A stretch of 35,440 nt of DNA from Chryseobacterium gleum (GTDB taxonomy: Bacteria > Bacteroidota > Bacteroidia > Flavobacteriales > Schleiferiaceae): contig CAMCXO010000025.1 of NCBI GenBank assembly GCA_945883565.1, positions 1 to 35,440 on the forward strand. The letters run 5' to 3'. Position numbers and translations under genes: made by a program. Shown here piece after piece: positions 1,677-33,443 of the stretch. Position 1 is the first letter of the stretch; the number at the start of each line of letters is the position of its first letter. A model generated the notes under the pieces. It worked only from the letters and a program-made list of their open reading frames with translations, had not been told where the DNA came from and did no database searches.

Positions 1677-2456
1677 ATGGCAATATTTAAAAAAGACGCA
1701 TTCGGCAATATTCTGCTTATCAAGCGGTTTATTATTTTCTTTTTCGGTGCCATCACCTATTACCGTTTCAATATGGCCAACCGCACCGAAGTGGTTGGAA
1801 GTGAGAATTTAAAGGGACTGCCCGATACCAAGGTGCTCTTTGTGAGCAACCACCAAACCTATTTTGCTGACGTAGCGGCTATGATTCATGTTTTTGGTGC
1901 GGCCAAATGGGGTGTTTACAACCGGATGGACTTTTTTTGGCATTTGCTTAATCCTCGCTTAAATGTGTACTTCATTGCGGCGGTAGAAACCATGAAAAAG
2001 GGCATTTTGCCAAGGTTGTTTGCCTATGTAGGTTCGGTAAACATAAAAAGAACCTGGCGGGCTGCCGGCAAAGACATTGACCGATCGGTAGACCCACGCG
2101 ATGTGCGAAAAATAACCAAAGCCATTGAAAGCGGCTGGGTAATTACGTTTCCACAAGGCACCACCAAGCCTTTCGCACCCGGTCGAAAAGGCACGGCCAA
2201 GATTATAAAAGAGTACAAGCCCATTGTGATTCCGGTAGTTGTAAATGGGTTTAGAAGGGCATTTAACAAGCGTGGGCTGCTCATGAAAAAGCGAGGCCAG
2301 ACACTGAGCATTACCATAAAACCGCCTTTAAACATAGACTATAGTTCAACGCCCGACTTTATTTTAAACCAGATTATGGATGCCATAGAGCAAACCGATG
2401 GCTTTATGAAACCCAAAAAACTAAGAAGCAACCATACGTCAAACCCCAATGGCTAA
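1677..2456 (+). CDS. 1-acyl-sn-glycerol-3-phosphate acyltransferase-like protein (PlsC family)
   Basis: The 259-residue protein belongs to the PlsC/LPLAT family, membrane enzymes that acylate lysophosphatidate or related lipids. A hydrophobic segment lies at about 12-30. Motif I reads NHQTYFAD (His59, Asp65), so the spacing is HX5D rather than the usual HX4D. The FPEGT block is replaced by FPQGTT, with Gln160 in place of Glu. The region from APGRKGTAKI to VIPVVVNGFRRAF fits the later conserved blocks. These differences suggest a divergent subfamily with an unproven acyl acceptor. The stop codon lies 64 bases before the following lipoprotein start. Confidence 0.8.
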   Translation: MAIFKKDAFGNILLIKRFIIFFFGAITYYRFNMANRTEVVGSENLKGLPDTKVLFVSNHQTYFADVAAMIHVFGAAKWGVYNRMDFFWHLLNPRLNVYFIAAVETMKKGILPRLFAYVGSVNIKRTWRAAGKDIDRSVDPRDVRKITKAIESGWVITFPQGTTKPFAPGRKGTAKIIKEYKPIVIPVVVNGFRRAFNKRGLLMKKRGQTLSITIKPPLNIDYSSTPDFILNQIMDAIEQTDGFMKPKKLRSNHTSNPNG

Positions 2457-2520
2457 GCCAAAAGCCCAGAGTGCTCAATATCACCAAAACCTAAGCGAGC
2501 CGACCTTAAATTTATCCCAT

Positions 2521-3303
2521 ATGAAACACAGCCCCTCTTATCTCATTATCGCCTTTTTTGCAGTTTGGGCCTTAACGGTTTCCTGCGAAAAAGACATTAG
2601 CGTGGGATCGGGTGTTACAGCCGACAACCGAAATGTATTTTTAAAGGCATTTTTAACCTACGAAGGCGAGGAGTTTTTTGAAGATTCGGTATATCAGCAT
2701 CCTGTATATCCTATGTCTTTTGTAATTACGGATTTCCGCATGGTAATTAGCAATTTTTTTGTTGAAACAACCGAAGAATTGTTTATCGATACCACCGTTT
2801 TTGCCGTTGTTAAGCCGAATGTTATCGATTATCCGGTTTTAAAACTCAGCAAAGGTTCGTACTCCGGACAAGTGGGTTTTGTATCGGGCATTCCGCTATT
2901 TCAAAATTTCATAACCGTTCCTCAAATGTTTCCAGAAAACTCGCCCATGCGTGAACCTATTCTATACAGAGGTCTGGTACCTCCTGTAAATGGCTATAAT
3001 TTCTTGGTTATACAAGGTTATGTATTAATTGAAAGCGGGGTTCCCGGGGTAGATTCTCTCACCTTACCCTTTAAATACGAATTGGGCCATGAACTGTTTT
3101 CGATTCCCAATGTGAATAAAAACTTCTCGGTGGCCAACAACACCCAAGCTTCGTTTGGAATAAGGGTTGACATTGACCGCATTATCGAAGATTTCGATTT
3201 GGTAATCATCGATAAAATTCGTTCTAATCCTAACGACAGTGCCGATTATCAAAATGCCAGAAGCCTACGCGAGGCTCTGGACTCGAGTATAGTATTCTTT
3301 TAA
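2521..3303 (+). CDS. Trp-less MbnP-like lipoprotein
   Basis: The frame is open from 2449, but the ATG at 2521 gives a clean lipoprotein signal: a hydrophobic stretch ending TVSC, with Cys at residue 22. A TAAATTTA box (2507-2514) sits just upstream. The 260-residue product can be aligned by eye with the MbnP-family protein encoded next. FRMVISNFFV corresponds to MRFYFSHLYA, LSKGSYSGQVGF to LPAGQYKGLQFS, and NKNFSVANNTQASFGIRVDI to NHNFTVNEGGTTNLRLTTDV. The W-x-W block of MbnP is replaced by a Trp-free stretch around GYNFLVIQG, and the mature protein contains no tryptophan at all. It therefore could not carry a kynurenine copper site. It is probably a periplasm-facing partner or a decayed paralogue. 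Family membership is my inference from motif order. Confidence 0.6.
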   Translation: MKHSPSYLIIAFFAVWALTVSCEKDISVGSGVTADNRNVFLKAFLTYEGEEFFEDSVYQHPVYPMSFVITDFRMVISNFFVETTEELFIDTTVFAVVKPNVIDYPVLKLSKGSYSGQVGFVSGIPLFQNFITVPQMFPENSPMREPILYRGLVPPVNGYNFLVIQGYVLIESGVPGVDSLTLPFKYELGHELFSIPNVNKNFSVANNTQASFGIRVDIDRIIEDFDLVIIDKIRSNPNDSADYQNARSLREALDSSIVFF

Positions 3304-3311
3304 AAAAAACT

Positions 3312-4070
3312 ATGAAAGCCAAAATTGCCTTTGTTTCGCTCGGACTGGTTTTGATGTCTATGAACGGTTGTGAAAAAGACAAGAAGAATGAAACCGCTGA
3401 GTCTAAAATTCAATTGGAGTTTGCCATGGTCAAGCCCGATGGCAGCCCTTTGGCTTTCGAATCTCCCATTCCCATTACCGAACAAACAGATGTAACCATA
3501 AGCGAGATGCGCTTTTACTTTAGCCATCTTTACGCCATTCCGCAGTCTGGCAATCCTGTAAAATTATCCGACCTCGAGCTTTTCGACCTTAAAAAAACGA
3601 ACCGAACCGCCTTTACTTTCACATTACCGGCTGGTCAATACAAAGGCTTGCAGTTTTCTGTTGGGCTCGATTCTAACCAAAATTATTCAGACCCAACGGG
3701 CTTTGCCCAATCACATCCGCTTAGTGCTTTTGCGGGCATGTATTGGACTTGGGCCACCCAATACCGCTTTGTTTTGGTTGAAGGAAGAGCCAATACAACC
3801 GGCAATACCGGCAGCAACAACGACCGCGCATTTAGCTATCACCCCGGGGGTAACCACCTATATGTTAAAGACCATATTATCAACCACAACTTCACGGTAA
3901 ACGAAGGCGGAACCACCAATTTGCGCCTTACAACTGATGTGGCCCAATGGTTCAATGCCAGCGGCGGAACCATAGACCCTTTCGTAGAATTTGCAGCCCA
4001 CGATGCACCGGCCGAGCAACCTTTGGCTGTAAAATACATCACCAATTTTACCGAAAGTTTGAGTCTTTAA
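3312..4070 (+). CDS. MbnP-family (copper-binding type) lipoprotein
   Basis: This 252-residue lipoprotein (lipobox Cys20, MSMNGC) has the MbnP signature blocks. These are MRFYFSHLYA (66-75), LPAGQYKGLQFSVGLD (105-120), GMYWTWATQYRF (142-153, with Trp145 and Trp147), VEG (156-158) and FSYHPGG (His177). In methanotroph MbnP a tryptophan is oxidised to kynurenine by the partner enzyme MbnH and copper is bound there. The conserved Trp pair and several histidines (72, 177, 182, 188, 192) make the same chemistry plausible, but which residue is modified cannot be told from sequence. It starts 8 bases after the Trp-less paralogue, and 3 bases separate its stop from the diheme enzyme gene. Confidence 0.8.
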   Translation: MKAKIAFVSLGLVLMSMNGCEKDKKNETAESKIQLEFAMVKPDGSPLAFESPIPITEQTDVTISEMRFYFSHLYAIPQSGNPVKLSDLELFDLKKTNRTAFTFTLPAGQYKGLQFSVGLDSNQNYSDPTGFAQSHPLSAFAGMYWTWATQYRFVLVEGRANTTGNTGSNNDRAFSYHPGGNHLYVKDHIINHNFTVNEGGTTNLRLTTDVAQWFNASGGTIDPFVEFAAHDAPAEQPLAVKYITNFTESLSL

Positions 4071-4073
4071 CCA

Positions 4074-5045
4074 GTGCGAATAGCTTGGCTGGCAGCGCTT
4101 ATAGCTGTATTTGGTGTTGGCTGTAATCAAACACAACCAAGCTTGGCCGATGGTGCCTTTCAGCCCCGGCTGCCGGAACACTTTCCACCTTTTGTTTACC
4201 CTTTAAACAACAAGCCAACAGAAGCCAAAATTGAATTGGGCAGAAGGTTGTTTTTCGATCCATCTTTTTCCGGCGATGGTAAAACGGCCTGTGCCAACTG
4301 CCATTTCCCCAAACATGCCTACAGCGATACCGTAGCTTTAAGTCCCGGATTTTTAAGCAGAACCGGCAAACGCAACGCCCCGGGATTATTTAATCTGTGT
4401 TGGCGAAAAAACTTTTTTAAAGATGGGGGCGTTCGAAATCTCGAGCTTCAGGTGTTGGCGCCTTTGTTGGATAGTCTGGAAATGCATTTTGGAGTGAGCC
4501 AATTTGTAAAGAAACTTGAAGATAATCAGGCCTATAGAGAAGCTTTTAAAGCCGCATTCAACAGTGCACCCGATTTGCAAAAAGCCGTTCAGGCCATAGC
4601 TTCATTCGAACGGAGTTTATTGACGTTCGAAACCCCATTTGATGCATTTTTGGCCGGCGATTCAAGTGCCTTAAGCCGACAGGAACAATTGGGTTTCGCC
4701 TTATTTTTTAGCCCCAAAACCCAATGCGGAAGCTGCCACAAAGGGGTATTTTTAAGCGATGACCAATTTTACAATCTGGGCTTCCAAACCACCATAGACC
4801 CCGGAAGATATCGAATTACCTACCAACCGATGGATGAAGGGAAATTTAGAACTCCAAGTCTTCGCAACATTTCTAAAACATGGCCTTATATGCACGATGG
4901 CCGGTTTAATACCCTAGAGGAGGTTCTGGCCTATTATGTAAAAGGGGGCGAAAATAACCCTTACCAAGACCCACGTATTCAACCTCTTGATCTCGATTCT
5001 AACCAACAAGAAGCCTTACTTGCTTTTATGCGGAACGCGCTTTAA
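4074..5045 (+). CDS. Diheme cytochrome c peroxidase/MauG family lipoprotein, MbnH-like
   Basis: The GTG at 4074 starts a 323-residue protein with lipobox GVGC (Cys17). Two c-type heme sites are visible, CANCH (73-77) and CGSCH (218-222), with the family blocks LGRRLFFDPSFS, FRTPSLRNI and PYMHDGRF. This is the CCP/MauG fold. MauG and MbnH use their two hemes to oxidise protein tryptophans rather than to detoxify peroxide. Placement 3 bases after the MbnP-family gene argues for the MbnH-like role. The block that reads WDGG in many relatives is FKDGG here, and the segment NLCWRKN carries an extra cysteine. The product is likely anchored in the outer membrane, facing the periplasm. Confidence 0.85.
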   Translation: MRIAWLAALIAVFGVGCNQTQPSLADGAFQPRLPEHFPPFVYPLNNKPTEAKIELGRRLFFDPSFSGDGKTACANCHFPKHAYSDTVALSPGFLSRTGKRNAPGLFNLCWRKNFFKDGGVRNLELQVLAPLLDSLEMHFGVSQFVKKLEDNQAYREAFKAAFNSAPDLQKAVQAIASFERSLLTFETPFDAFLAGDSSALSRQEQLGFALFFSPKTQCGSCHKGVFLSDDQFYNLGFQTTIDPGRYRITYQPMDEGKFRTPSLRNISKTWPYMHDGRFNTLEEVLAYYVKGGENNPYQDPRIQPLDLDSNQQEALLAFMRNAL

Positions 5046-6832: not shown

Positions 6833-7495
6833 TTGAAAACCCTCATTATTAGGGCGGCTTTGGTCCTTGGAATTTTCGGTCTGGCGTTTCTGTTTGCCTG
6901 GTTTTATATGCAGCCCGACTATAAAACCCTGCCTTATTACAATCCTTCTGATGTAAACGAAGAATTGTACGACGTCAGTTTGAAGGGTAAGGGTAGGGGG
7001 CATATTATTCAAAACTTCCGGCTCACCGACCAAGAAGGTAAAAATTTCACCGAGCAGCAACTAAAAGGCAAGGTGTATATGGCCGATTTCTTTTTCACCA
7101 CATGCCCCAGTATTTGCCTCGACATGGCCAAAACCAAACGGTGGCTTCAAACCGAAATGGAAAGTTATCCGGATTTCTTAATGGTTTCACATACGGTTAT
7201 GCCCGAAGTGGATTCTGTTTCGGTAATGGCAGCCTATGCAAATGCACAAAATGCCCAGTATGGCAGGTGGTTTTTGCTTACCGGACAGCGAGATAGCATT
7301 TATAAGTTGGCAAGACAATCGTATTTGGTGGCCAAAGAACCATCTGAAACCGAAAAGTCTCACGACTTTATTCATACCGAAAATTTTGTTTTGGTAGACC
7401 GTGAGGGCCGAATTCGCGGTTTTTACAACGGCACCGATTTAAAAGATGTGGAGCGTTTGGCTGCCGATGCCAAATGGCTCTTAAACAGGCCTTAA
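6833..7495 (+). CDS. SCO1/SenC family copper chaperone, membrane anchored
   Basis: SCO proteins are thioredoxin-fold copper chaperones that metallate the CuA site of cytochrome c oxidase. This 220-residue protein has one N-terminal membrane segment (about 5-25). Its thioredoxin-like domain carries the metal ligands: TTCPSIC with Cys91 and Cys95, and the distal His181 in DFIHTENF. The start is a TTG at 6833, 12 bases after lysS. The next in-frame Met (residue 26) would remove the membrane anchor, so TTG is preferred. Its position close to an MbnP/MbnH-like locus fits a local copper theme, although lysS lies between them. Confidence 0.9.
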   Translation: MKTLIIRAALVLGIFGLAFLFAWFYMQPDYKTLPYYNPSDVNEELYDVSLKGKGRGHIIQNFRLTDQEGKNFTEQQLKGKVYMADFFFTTCPSICLDMAKTKRWLQTEMESYPDFLMVSHTVMPEVDSVSVMAAYANAQNAQYGRWFLLTGQRDSIYKLARQSYLVAKEPSETEKSHDFIHTENFVLVDREGRIRGFYNGTDLKDVERLAADAKWLLNRP

Positions 7496-17057: not shown

Positions 17058-17990
17058 TTAAAAAAACCGCAATACATGAATACTCAAGGCATAATCCCAG
17101 CGGGGTTGATAACCACTGTAGCTAGCTCGTACCGGCAATTGTACCCTAAGGCCAGAGCTCCAATTTCCCCAATAAACATCGCCTCCGGTTTGCAATACCA
17201 TTCGGCTGCTGCCACTGTGAGGATTTTCGACGCTTTCTGGACTTTTATCGAGACCGTTGTTTTCGAACCGAAAACCAATGAGCGGTGTAACCAAGGTTTT
17301 GGTTGAACTATGGTAATAAATGGCGGTGGCCGATGCCTGTTTGTAAAATCCCATGCGATAACCATCTTCATTTTCGGTGAAATAGGTGGCCATTAACTCC
17401 GATAAAAGCCCCCATTTGTTATGCCTAATGCCAAATTGGGTAAACATTGGAAAAGCATAGGCACCACTACCGGCCTGCATACCAAGCGGAAAAACAACCT
17501 TTCGGTAGTCGCGTTGGCGGTATTTACCGGTAGGCAACTGAATACTTAAGCCTGCATTCCATTGTCCTTGCCAACCATTTTCCCAAATTCGCTTTAACAG
17601 TTGTTGGTTGATGGTAAATTGTATATCGCCTATGCCGCTCAACATTTGTTGCCTATTTGTTTCAATGCGTTCCTTCCACACATAGGGCACGTTTACCATT
17701 AATTGGGTTTTTTCGTTAAAAACCCACCGCCCCCAAATATCCATCTGATTCCAAACATCGGTTTCAACCCGGCCGGCATTTGTTTGGGTTTCCGGAATAT
17801 TGAGATGAGAAAAGCGCAGTTGGTGGTATCGGAATGATAAAAACGAGCGGGAAAACTGAGGCAAAACACCCATTTGTCCTCCGGTTGAGAGGCAGCCACA
17901 TAAGTCGCAGGCTTTTGCACTAAAACTGTTTGAAACAATCAGAACGCTAAAAAGGATTCTGAAACTCGCTTTGATGTAAAAAGGTTTCAT
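17058..17990 (-). CDS. Outer-membrane beta-barrel protein with CxxCxC N-terminal motif
   Basis: The 310-residue protein has a signal peptide (cleavage near residue 27) directly followed by CDLCGC (Cys28, Cys31, Cys33). The rest is alternating beta-strand sequence ending in an aromatic residue (HVLRFF), typical of outer-membrane barrels. Proteins of this shape are often called transporters in Bacteroidota. The cysteine triplet at the mature N-terminus is a plausible soft-metal site. The ATG lies inside the upstream diheme enzyme gene (44-base overlap), so the two are coupled. With the MbnP/MbnH-like genes upstream, a role in copper movement across the outer membrane is an inference. Confidence 0.7.
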   Translation of the reverse strand: MKPFYIKASFRILFSVLIVSNSFSAKACDLCGCLSTGGQMGVLPQFSRSFLSFRYHQLRFSHLNIPETQTNAGRVETDVWNQMDIWGRWVFNEKTQLMVNVPYVWKERIETNRQQMLSGIGDIQFTINQQLLKRIWENGWQGQWNAGLSIQLPTGKYRQRDYRKVVFPLGMQAGSGAYAFPMFTQFGIRHNKWGLLSELMATYFTENEDGYRMGFYKQASATAIYYHSSTKTLVTPLIGFRFENNGLDKSPESVENPHSGSSRMVLQTGGDVYWGNWSSGLRVQLPVRASYSGYQPRWDYALSIHVLRFF

Positions 17991-18975
17991 CGCTAAGTGC
18001 CTTTAAGAAGGCTAAAAGTTGTTGTTTTTCGCTGTTAGAAAATTGAAATCCCCCGGTAGGTAAACTGGGGTCTAATTGTTTATGAGCTGTAATACCGCTG
18101 CTATAGTGTTCTATTACCTGCTCCAGACTTTCAATACGACCATCGTGCATATAGGGGAGGGTATAGGCAATGTTGCGCAATGAGGGCACCTTAAACTTCA
18201 TCGAATCCTCGGCCAAAAGGCTAATCATACCCCTTCCGGCATCGCTATAACCCTCTGCCAACCCATTATTCCGAAAGCTGAAATTTGTGAACAAAGGGGG
18301 TTTGTGGCATTGGCTGCAGTTCTGATTAAAAAGGGCTAAACCGGCTAATTCTTCTCCATTTAGGGCGTTTTTATTCCCTTTAACATATTGGTCGTATGGT
18401 GAATTCTCGCTTATAAGGGCGCTCATAAACTGAGCGAGGGCCAGAAACATTTTTCGGTCGTTTATATCGCCTTTCCCAAACGCATTTTCGAAGTCGCGCT
18501 GGTATTCGGGCGAACGCTTCAATTTGGCCACCACTTCCTTTAAGTCGGAACCCATTTCAACGGGGTTGGTAATTGGGGCAAAGGGCATGATTTCAATATG
18601 CTGCACACCGCCATCCCACATAAACTCGGGCATCCAAGCCAAATTAAACATGGCCGGACTATTCCTTAAACCGAATTCATCGTTTAAGCCATGGCTTAAT
18701 GGGTGAAAAGGATCGCTAAACGCTGCCCAAGGTTTGTGGCACGATTCGCAACTTATGGTGCTGTCTACCGATAAAATGGGGTCGAAAAAGAGCTTTCTTC
18801 CCAAATTGGTTATTCGCTTATCGGGCAAATTGCCTTCAAATTGATAATGGGCCGGAGGGAAGTGCTCGGGTTGAAAGAAGAGGCCCCCGGCAGGAGCCTC
18901 CTCTTGATTTTTCTCAGGAGTGCAAGCCAAAGCCGCCAAAAACAGCAGAAGCAAACTCCCAAAAACAGGTTTCAT
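17947..18975 (-). CDS. Diheme cytochrome c peroxidase/MauG family lipoprotein, MbnH-like (locus 2)
   Basis: The 342-residue lipoprotein (lipobox LAALAC, Cys18) has heme c sites CESCH (76-80) and CSQCH (220-224). CCP/MauG blocks are LGRKLFFDPILS, RNSPAMFNLAWMPEFMWDGGV, ITNPVEMG, FKVPSLRNI and PYMHDGRI. It starts directly after the stop of the MbnP-family gene, with no spacer, and overlaps the barrel gene downstream. That arrangement argues for an MbnH-like enzyme that modifies its neighbour, rather than a peroxide-scavenging peroxidase. Compared with the enzyme at 4074 it retains the WDGG block and an NPVEMG block, so the two loci are clearly diverged. Confidence 0.87.
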   Translation of the reverse strand: MKPVFGSLLLLFLAALACTPEKNQEEAPAGGLFFQPEHFPPAHYQFEGNLPDKRITNLGRKLFFDPILSVDSTISCESCHKPWAAFSDPFHPLSHGLNDEFGLRNSPAMFNLAWMPEFMWDGGVQHIEIMPFAPITNPVEMGSDLKEVVAKLKRSPEYQRDFENAFGKGDINDRKMFLALAQFMSALISENSPYDQYVKGNKNALNGEELAGLALFNQNCSQCHKPPLFTNFSFRNNGLAEGYSDAGRGMISLLAEDSMKFKVPSLRNIAYTLPYMHDGRIESLEQVIEHYSSGITAHKQLDPSLPTGGFQFSNSEKQQLLAFLKALSDETFLHQSEFQNPF

Positions 18976-19734
18976 TTAGTTGTGAATATGTTCCAATTCA
19001 AACATTTCAACATAATTCTTTGAAATGTTTACCGCGTTCATACCGGGCATGGTAACCCTTGGGTTTTGCGAAACGCGCAATTCCATTCCGGGGCCATCAA
19101 ACATTTTTTCTACATGAACCATTTGGTGCAATTCAGGGGTGGCTGTTGAGGTTATTTGCAATGGCAAAGGGAATAAATAACTAACTTCCTGCAAAGCATT
19201 CGTTTTATTTGCGTTGCGGAATCCGCCTATGTGATAAGCAAAATCAGTTCCATTGCTTTGTCCTTCGGTTTTTAAGAAAATATAACCCGAATTCCAGCTC
19301 CAAAACATACCCTCCGCCGGGCTTAGTGCGCCTTCCTGGGCTCCAGAAACGTTGCGCGTGCTGTCTACCCCAATGGTGAAACGCATACCTGAATAGGTTT
19401 TGGCAGGTATATTCTCCAATTCGAGTTCAAGGGTGGACTGGCTGCCTAGCTTAAACAGATGGTAGCTTTCGGGAACTGAATATACCGAGCCGTCTACAGC
19501 AATCCATTCAATATTGCTGATGTAATAGTTGAACATGCTGAAATTTAAAGCTTCGCCACCAATGTTGGTAACCGGCTGTGCGGTGGGAATGGTAAACGGG
19601 CTGCTACCCCATTTGTGTTCAAACTCCAATATGGCTTTGCCAAATTGTGGTTGGGTGTTGTTGTTATTGTTTTCGTCTTTTTTACAAGCCAAAACACTAA
19701 GGCCGAGCAAAGCGGCCAATACTAAATTGCGCAT
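18976..19734 (-). CDS. MbnP-family (copper-binding type) lipoprotein (locus 2)
   Basis: The 252-residue lipoprotein (Cys17 in SVLAC) carries the MbnP blocks FNYYISNIEWI (68-78), IPAKTYSGMRFTIGVDSTRN (109-128), EGMFWSWNSGYIFLKTEG (141-158, Trp145 and Trp147) and FAYHIGG (His168). An Asn-rich spacer (22-26) follows the lipid anchor. A His-rich end (LEHIHN) could add ligands. It is the same family as the protein at 3312 and has the same W-x-W spacing. As in methanotroph MbnP, one Trp could be converted to kynurenine by the adjacent diheme enzyme to make a copper site; this is expectation from the family, not shown by sequence. Confidence 0.83.
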   Translation of the reverse strand: MRNLVLAALLGLSVLACKKDENNNNNTQPQFGKAILEFEHKWGSSPFTIPTAQPVTNIGGEALNFSMFNYYISNIEWIAVDGSVYSVPESYHLFKLGSQSTLELELENIPAKTYSGMRFTIGVDSTRNVSGAQEGALSPAEGMFWSWNSGYIFLKTEGQSNGTDFAYHIGGFRNANKTNALQEVSYLFPLPLQITSTATPELHQMVHVEKMFDGPGMELRVSQNPRVTMPGMNAVNISKNYVEMFELEHIHN

Positions 19735-19773
19735 TTTTTTGTTGATTTTGAGTTTTTTAACTGAGATTAGTAC

Positions 19774-20172
19774 TTAAACGTCCGTGTGAACAGGTGATGT
19801 AAAAACCCAAAATTTTGGAGGATGCCAATTCTGAAACCGATATCCAATTAACAAATTAGCCCCAAAGTATACAGGACTTTTCGTTTGTATGAAGGAAACT
19901 CTATTTATATCGGGAAGGAATGTCTCTAAGAAAAACAGAAGCAAATGTTCGGCTTCCGGAATAACAGGGGCTTGCTCAGAATTCTTAGAACCGGCTTCGA
20001 GCATGTCTTTTAAATGACATTGTCCGCGACAGTCAAGCTCAGGTTTGTCTTTATTTACGCAAAACACCTCAGCTATATACGTGCGATTTGCTTCGAAAAA
20101 CGCCAATGCCGCAGTTTGATACAACCACAGCTGAGCAATTGACAACATAAACAAAGCCGCTACAACACGCAT
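19774..20172 (-). CDS. Small envelope protein with C-x9-C-x3-CH motif
   Basis: The 132-residue protein has an N-terminal hydrophobic segment (about 3-25) and then FCVNKDKPELDCRGQCHL, in which Cys38, Cys48, Cys52 and His53 form a possible metal or disulfide site. A hydrophobic middle stretch (77-86) and a WHPPKF motif near the C-terminus follow. I have no named family for it, though the KDKPELDC-G-CHL pattern looks like a conserved Bacteroidota small protein. It is first in the operon with the MbnP-family, MbnH-like and CxxCxC barrel genes (39-base gap to the next gene). A role in copper sensing or delivery would fit the context but is unproven. Confidence 0.7.
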   Translation of the reverse strand: MRVVAALFMLSIAQLWLYQTAALAFFEANRTYIAEVFCVNKDKPELDCRGQCHLKDMLEAGSKNSEQAPVIPEAEHLLLFFLETFLPDINRVSFIQTKSPVYFGANLLIGYRFQNWHPPKFWVFTSPVHTDV

Positions 20173-32411: not shown

Positions 32412-33443
32412 TTAAGCCTCCGGCAAAGCCTCTACCGGCAATTCACCATCTAAACTCTTTAAAAAAGCCACAATCTTGCCGACTTCTTCGTCGCTTAAAT
32501 CTTTGTTCAATTGGGTTTTACCCATTATTCTGCATGCATCTTCCAAAGAAGCCACCGACCCATCGTGAAAATACGGATAGGTTTGGCTCACATTGCGCAG
32601 GCTGGGTACCTTAAACATAAACTCATCTTCCGGTTTTTGGCTCACTTCTGCCTTGCCCTTATCGTGTTTGGTGCTGCCTGTATATTCCCAATAAGGTCCA
32701 TTCATTAAACCAAACTTCTGAAACATATTGCCACCTAATCCGGCCCCCATATGGCAGGTTATACAGCCGGCATCAAAAAACGCCTGCAAACCAGCCTGTT
32801 CATCGGACGTTAAAGCCCCAATGTCTCCATTAATATACCGATCGAAGCGCCCGGGTGTAATCAAAGCTTTTTCGTATTCGGCAATGGCGTCGGCTATATT
32901 TTGGTAGCTTACCACCGGATTTTCAGGAAAAGCCTCTGCAAACAATGGCCCGTATTCGGCTATGGCTTTAATACGCGCTTCAGCCGTTTTCTCGTCTTTA
33001 ATGCCCATTTCAATTGGATTTAATATGGGCCCCTTGGCCTGCTCGCTCAAATCGGCCGCGCGCCCATCCCAAAATTGGGCAATGTGCAAAGAAGCATTAA
33101 ATACCGTTGGACTGTTTCTATCGCCCCTTTTGCCCTCATGCCCTGGCGAAGTGGGTTCACGGTCAACCCCAAAACGCTTTACATCGTGGCACGAATTGCA
33201 GCTCATCTGCCCATTGGCCGACAAAGCCGTTTCAAAATACAAACGCTTGCCAAGTTGCGCTTTGGCACTGTTTAATCCAGGCGATTCAGGCAAAGCCTTA
33301 AAAATACCCTGAGCACGTGCCAGCAAAGCCTCTGTAACCTCTTGTTCGGCAGTGTCTTGAACCTCTACCTTAGGCTCAGCATTTTGACAGGCCCAAACCA
33401 CCATTGCGGGAAAAAGGGCCTTTAAATACATGCTTATTTTCAT
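32412..33443 (-). CDS. Diheme cytochrome c peroxidase, classical CcpA type, lipoprotein
   Basis: Bacterial CCP reduces hydrogen peroxide to water in the periplasm using electrons from cytochrome c. The 343-residue protein has a lipobox-like end to its signal (VVWAC, Cys19) and heme sites CNSCH (82-86) and CITCH (227-231). RNSPTVFNASLHIAQFWDGRA, the active-site block NPIEMG (Glu145), FKVPSLRNV and YPYFHDGS match classical CcpA enzymes more closely than the two MbnH-like proteins do. No MbnP-family gene is adjacent and the gene has its own terminator, which supports a peroxide-defence role. The ATG at 33443 follows a -7-type box. Confidence 0.92.
   Translation of the reverse strand: MKISMYLKALFPAMVVWACQNAEPKVEVQDTAEQEVTEALLARAQGIFKALPESPGLNSAKAQLGKRLYFETALSANGQMSCNSCHDVKRFGVDREPTSPGHEGKRGDRNSPTVFNASLHIAQFWDGRAADLSEQAKGPILNPIEMGIKDEKTAEARIKAIAEYGPLFAEAFPENPVVSYQNIADAIAEYEKALITPGRFDRYINGDIGALTSDEQAGLQAFFDAGCITCHMGAGLGGNMFQKFGLMNGPYWEYTGSTKHDKGKAEVSQKPEDEFMFKVPSLRNVSQTYPYFHDGSVASLEDACRIMGKTQLNKDLSDEEVGKIVAFLKSLDGELPVEALPEA

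Follow-up and report, generated by a model that had tools for sequence, protein, structure and literature searches.

What does a pair of lipoproteins related to MbnP and MbnH do in a genome without methanobactin genes, and what do the genes on either side of the pair contribute? MbnP/MbnH pairs are known far beyond the methanotrophs, and their occurrence outside methanobactin operons was noted in 2013 (PMC3621798); our literature search found nothing on MbnP/MbnH in Bacteroidota or on the four-gene unit described here. The window, by which we mean the whole 35,440-nucleotide stretch of DNA analysed, from a contig deposited as Chryseobacterium gleum, holds such a pair within a run of four genes:

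19774–20172, minus strand: CYS, 132 aa, small cysteine protein
18976–19734, minus strand: MBP, 252 aa, MbnP-family lipoprotein
17947–18975, minus strand: MBH, 342 aa, MbnH/MauG-like diheme lipoprotein
17058–17990, minus strand: BAR, 310 aa, predicted outer-membrane barrel of the COG4313/FapF type

Our check of the open reading frames agrees with a sequence-only reading of the window, which had placed four minus-strand genes here and described their junctions along CYS-MBP-MBH-BAR as a gap of 39 bases, a gap of 0 and an overlap of 44 bases. The motifs it had listed, W-x-W and YHIGG in MBP, two heme sites in MBH and a mature start at CDLCGC in BAR, are all present in the ORFs. It had further placed the unit outside any methanobactin context, in keeping with which the MbnB family (PF05114) was not found in a search of the whole genome. 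A promoter and terminator scan of the operon gave signal at the level of shuffled sequence.

Conservation of the gene order across Bacteroidota

The sequence-only reading depended chiefly on co-occurrence of the four families across genomes, and the four do co-occur. We searched 247 Bacteroidota genomes of at least 90% completeness independently with models of BAR, MBP and CYS, and then combined the results. At a threshold of 76 bits or more there are 33 BAR loci, 28 of which have an MBP gene within 5 kb on the same strand; it lies 1.7–2.5 kb upstream of BAR in 26 loci and just downstream in two. CYS is also present in 24 of these 26, so that 24 of the 33 BAR loci show the order CYS-MBP-BAR, and the 26 are spread over nine families. 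By a simple distance estimate, which assumes about 1.3 MbnP genes per 4 Mb and takes 5 kb either side on the same strand, the MBP-BAR neighbourhood is expected in about 0.05 of 33 loci. As the same order is found in at least nine Bacteroidota families, it exceeds chance. The MbnP family itself (PF20243) is present in 96 of the 148 genomes of the window's order, and the full arrangement CYS-MBP-MBH-BAR occurs in the window's own family (loci L033–L036, L038) and in two further families (L053–L059; L065, L067–L072).

A scan of named genomes yielded at least 563 relatives, and among the best 80 of these (L137–L216) the carriers are Hymenobacter, Pedobacter, Owenweeksia, Thermaurantimonas, Taibaiella, Rufibacter and many Bacteroidota MAGs. 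All four families are held by 36 of the 66 loci within this best 80 that are uncut by a contig end. The genes in the named loci are tightly packed: MBP and MBH overlap or lie within 10 bases of each other in 43 of 61 pairs, as do MBH and BAR in 24 of 34.

Some records stand apart. The Hymenobacter negativus locus (L168, 2665–7795) carries the unit in two tandem copies, the first with an MbnP lacking the W-x-W...H pattern. CYS-MbnP-MbnH also occurs in a gammaproteobacterial chromosome record (L215, CP034120, Glaciecola amylolytica), through transfer or a mislabelled record, and a plasmid search gave just two distant Deinococcus matches.

The MbnP/MbnH pair

Identification of MBP as an MbnP, made earlier from the sequence, holds at family level. 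MBP matches PF20243 with an E value of 3.4e-51 and 174.3 bits, against a gathering cut-off of 27. It falls below the equivalog cut-off of NCBIfam TIGR04052 (42.2 vs 140 bits) and lacks the four-Cys motif of that family, its sole cysteine, Cys17, being that of the lipobox. Its other landmarks are M143, W145-S-W147, Y-H168-I-G-G and a C-terminal H249-x-H251. A single-sequence search of the PDB with MBP gave no meaningful match; a profile search found 7L6G, the MbnP of Methylosinus trichosporium. The AlphaFold2 model of MBP (pLDDT 89, 46 sequences) superposes on 7L6G with Z 17.3 over 207 residues at an rmsd of 2.9, the next entry having Z 5.6, and all six Foldseek matches of the model at E<0.001 are 7L6G chains.

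When 156 MbnP-family proteins are placed in a tree, MBP belongs to a 116-member clade (support 0.875), and so do 72 of the 73 proteins that have BAR as a neighbour and 93 of the 98 that have CYS. Within this clade W145 is conserved in 100% of members, W147 and H168 in 99% and M143 in 97%. The profile alignment places M143, W145 and W147 on the M-x-W-x-W stretch (MAWNW) of 7L6G, and H168 on its H-x-G stretch (HVG). We take the copper site of 7L6G, as a lead, to be formed by a His, a Met and a kynurenine made from the first Trp of W-x-W; by analogy, Trp145 would be the residue of MBP that is converted to kynurenine.

The diheme partner was likewise rightly assigned at family level. MBH matches Pfam CCP_MauG (E 7.9e-54) and is a lipoprotein with a PYMHDG motif and two CxxCH motifs (C76-C79-H80, C220-C223-H224), both kept in 60 of 60 relatives. 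Its best match among solved structures is MbnH 6E1C (E 5.3e-74), and it also aligns well to ordinary cytochrome c peroxidases. Tyr291 aligns with MauG chain position 294 and with the Tyr of 6E1C, at the place where peroxidases have an axial Met; together with the two CxxCH motifs, this Tyr marks MBH as an MbnH/MauG-like diheme oxidase. Its score with NCBIfam TIGR04039 is below the equivalog cut-off (214.7 vs 362.85 bits).

The lipoprotein export signal of Bacteroidota consists of acidic residues after the lipobox Cys (PMC5080379). A loose fit to this signal is seen in 70 of the 93 clade MbnPs, and 28 of the 44 MBH proteins, with a recognised lipobox, which is suggestive of surface export of both lipoproteins.

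The barrel and the three-cysteine protein

BAR begins with a signal peptide (AKA^CDLCGC), followed by CDLCGC at residues 28–33, a short segment and a first strand from residue 50. Its AlphaFold2 model (pLDDT 88, 47 sequences) is a 12-strand barrel that superposes on the COG4313 channel 4RL8 with Z 26.4 (249 residues, rmsd 2.6) and on FapF 5O65 with Z 25.7. A Pfam search at E<=1 gave no match to BAR, PF13557 included, and NCBIfam gave nothing of note; a single distant relative, that of L122, is matched by PF13557. We thus describe BAR, from its model, as built like a COG4313 channel, and do not file it as a member because the PF13557 profile is not matched. C31 and G41 are invariant among its relatives, and C28, D29 and G32 almost invariant. 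The pore of 4RL8 is all but shut by its first ~14 residues, which enter the lumen from the periplasm (PMC4493636). As the 4RL8 alignment starts at residue 36 of the model and residue 1 of the chain, shortly after CDLCGC, these cysteines would be expected at the plug of BAR or at its periplasmic mouth, in a stretch modelled at low confidence (pLDDT <50 for residues 21–38).

CYS matches no Pfam family and nothing of note in NCBIfam; throughout the phylum, its homologues precede either MbnP or the barrel. It had been described by the motif C-x9-C-x3-CH, of which the three cysteines stand and the histidine does not: in C38-x9-C48-x3-C52-H53, the residue after C52 varies among 62 relatives (H in 21, Q in 11, Y in 11, F in 9). 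The wider pattern is C-x-N-K-D-K-P-x-x-x-C-x-G-x-C with a C-terminal PP, and the invariant residues are C38, N40, C48, G50, C52, P118 and P119. An N-terminal hydrophobic stretch suggests that CYS is anchored in the inner membrane with its cysteines in the periplasm.

Two modules and their variants

The sequence-only reading had called the four genes a complete unit, which is too strong: CYS and BAR are also found without MbnP/MbnH, and some units have no local MbnH. CYS directly precedes BAR, with neither MBP nor MBH, in L109–L115 (the window's family and one other genome of its order) and in several other families of the 247-genome set, and the MbnP-MbnH pair occurs alone in many loci. Because CYS and the barrel also occur without MbnP/MbnH, the four-gene unit is best described as a merger of two modules, MbnP/MbnH and CYS plus barrel. 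In seven loci the order is CYS-MBP-BAR with no MBH gene alongside; as each of the seven genomes has MBH relatives at another place, MBP could be matured in trans where the local gene is missing.

Other clusters headed by CYS contain either a YtkA-domain protein together with a TonB receptor (L060–L062, L117, L120) or genes of the YHS, SCO and Mn/Fe-SOD kinds (L065, L067, L069–L072). In L109–L115, a small His-rich lipoprotein of 100–148 aa, possibly a further metal-binding partner, directly follows the CYS-BAR pair. The BAR relatives in L116 and L122 lack CDxCGC and are Met/His-rich instead. A differing family architecture, MbnP followed by two tandem diheme genes, is seen in L043, L045, L049, L076 and L082.

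Comparison with known systems

The closest known counterpart is the MbnP/MbnH pair of methanotrophs (7L6G, 6E1C; GenProp0940), with which the window unit shares folds, the W-x-W and His positions, adjacent genes and a diheme enzyme with a Tyr in the axial position. Unlike that pair, the unit has no methanobactin genes and no four-Cys motif, scores below the TIGR04052 and TIGR04039 cut-offs, and combines its lipoproteins with a channel and a thiol protein. A second parallel comes from CorA/CorB and MopE/SACCP of methanotrophs: CorA and MopE carry kynurenine in a Cu(I) site, are repressed by copper and have an adjoining diheme peroxidase gene (PMC3912023). The likeness is that of a Trp-to-kynurenine Cu(I) protein beside a diheme peroxidase-like gene, with a surface or envelope location; in the window protein, the kynurenine is putative. 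The sequence of MbnP is described as showing no marked similarity to those of MopE and CorA (PMC3621798).

The COG4313/FapF channels (4RL8, 5O65), the best structural matches of BAR, share with it a barrel of ~270 residues and a segment preceding the first strand. BAR differs in its CDxCGC start, its failure to match PF13557 and its conserved place beside MbnP/MbnH; known members of the group are tied to hydrophobic compounds or amyloid export. Other Bacteroidota clusters have the same small C-x9-C-x3-C protein in the lead, but there a YtkA-domain protein and a TonB receptor follow, in place of the MbnP/MbnH and barrel of the window.

Proposed copper handling and its alternatives

We somewhat favour the view that the four genes make up a TonB-independent copper-handling unit of the outer membrane, whose most likely task is to acquire scarce copper or to hold on to it, though the observations fit acquisition, buffering and export alike. 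A putative link to copper comes from the families of the proteins, from SCO genes next to the unit and from relatives rich in Met and His. An SCO gene follows BAR directly or after one ORF in six Pedobacter-type loci, and in another family lies between two CYS genes, with YHS and Mn/Fe-SOD genes; SCO adjacency is confined to these two lineages. Sister loci contain Met-rich barrel relatives and small His-rich lipoproteins, and a P1B ATPase gene lies near a related CYS cluster. COX2 was considered as a marker of copper need and shows no simple tie: it is matched in 184 of the 247 genomes, and because three genomes with the unit have no COX2 match, the unit is not tied to the CuA oxidase.

The analysis itself shows the linkage of the genes, their folds and families and the conserved site residues; the scheme that we infer, with copper as ligand, Trp oxidation, a relay and an inward direction, would run as follows. 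MBH would oxidise Trp145 of MBP to kynurenine, which by homology could complete a Cu(I) site with His168 and probably Met143, so that MBP would load or buffer Cu(I) at the outer membrane. BAR would be the passage across this membrane, and its CDxCGC might be a Cu(I) site at the periplasmic mouth that gates or receives the ion, because it stands just before the segment that plugs the lumen in the solved COG4313 channel. On the periplasmic side, CYS might then accept the ion, for instance on its way to SCO-type chaperones. As a whole, this TonB-independent copper gate, in which a kynurenine-copper lipoprotein passes Cu(I) through a COG4313-like channel with a CDxCGC plug to an anchored three-Cys acceptor, is offered as a speculative proposal and judged unlikely.

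The same proteins could instead serve detoxification, trapping excess Cu(I) of the envelope for release through the barrel, in which case high copper would induce the unit. The P1B-type ATPase and SOD genes adjoining related CYS clusters fit this equally well, the partners are thiol-rich and Met/His-rich, and the unit has no TonB receptor of its own as a constant member; yet the known kynurenine-copper proteins CorA and MopE are produced under low copper (PMC3912023), and other CYS clusters adjoin TonB-dependent receptors, which are uptake systems. We regard detoxification as unlikely. More distinctly unlikely is a different ligand, or an MbnH that is a peroxidase and an MbnP with a redox or scaffold role, and no kynurenine-copper site. 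Scores below the curated equivalog cut-offs for both MBP and MBH, the good alignment of MBH with ordinary cytochrome c peroxidases and the clusters that lack a local MbnH would suit such a role, against which stand the near invariance of W145, H168 and M143, the swap of the peroxidase axial Met for Tyr, as in MauG and MbnH, and the SCO adjacency.

A third possibility fits the copper reading and competes with the relay only: MbnP/MbnH and CYS plus barrel may be separate modules that share a promoter because they serve the same metal, without any physical relay. Each is indeed found without the other, as CYS, barrel and His-rich lipoprotein in L109–L115 and as MbnP-MbnH alone in many loci. This would not lead one to expect MbnP/MbnH to be inserted between the other two, in the order Cys-MbnP-MbnH-barrel and with coding overlaps, in at least nine families, and we hold it to be somewhat doubtful.

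The phylum-wide gene order names two partners of MbnP/MbnH, a channel with a cysteine tip and a protein with three cysteines, which make the purpose of the pair outside methanobactin operons testable in cultured Pedobacter, Hymenobacter and Thermaurantimonas. The relay, if true, would give copper a way of its own across the outer membrane, independent of a TonB receptor.

The same genome holds further members of these families. A third MbnP-family protein, on another contig (C16, 36662–37054; L003), lacks W-x-W, and in the window a further MauG/peroxidase-like gene (32412–33443, minus strand), which scores 186 bits with the MbnH-like model, has no adjoining MbnP gene. At 2449–5045 of the window, on the plus strand, lies a second set of MbnP/MbnH genes, which belongs to a different subfamily:

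2449–3303, plus strand: weak MbnP-like lipoprotein
3312–4070, plus strand: MbnP with YWTW and YHPGG
4074–5045, plus strand: diheme gene

It is followed, after one unrelated gene (lysyl-tRNA synthetase-like), by an SCO gene at 6833–7495.
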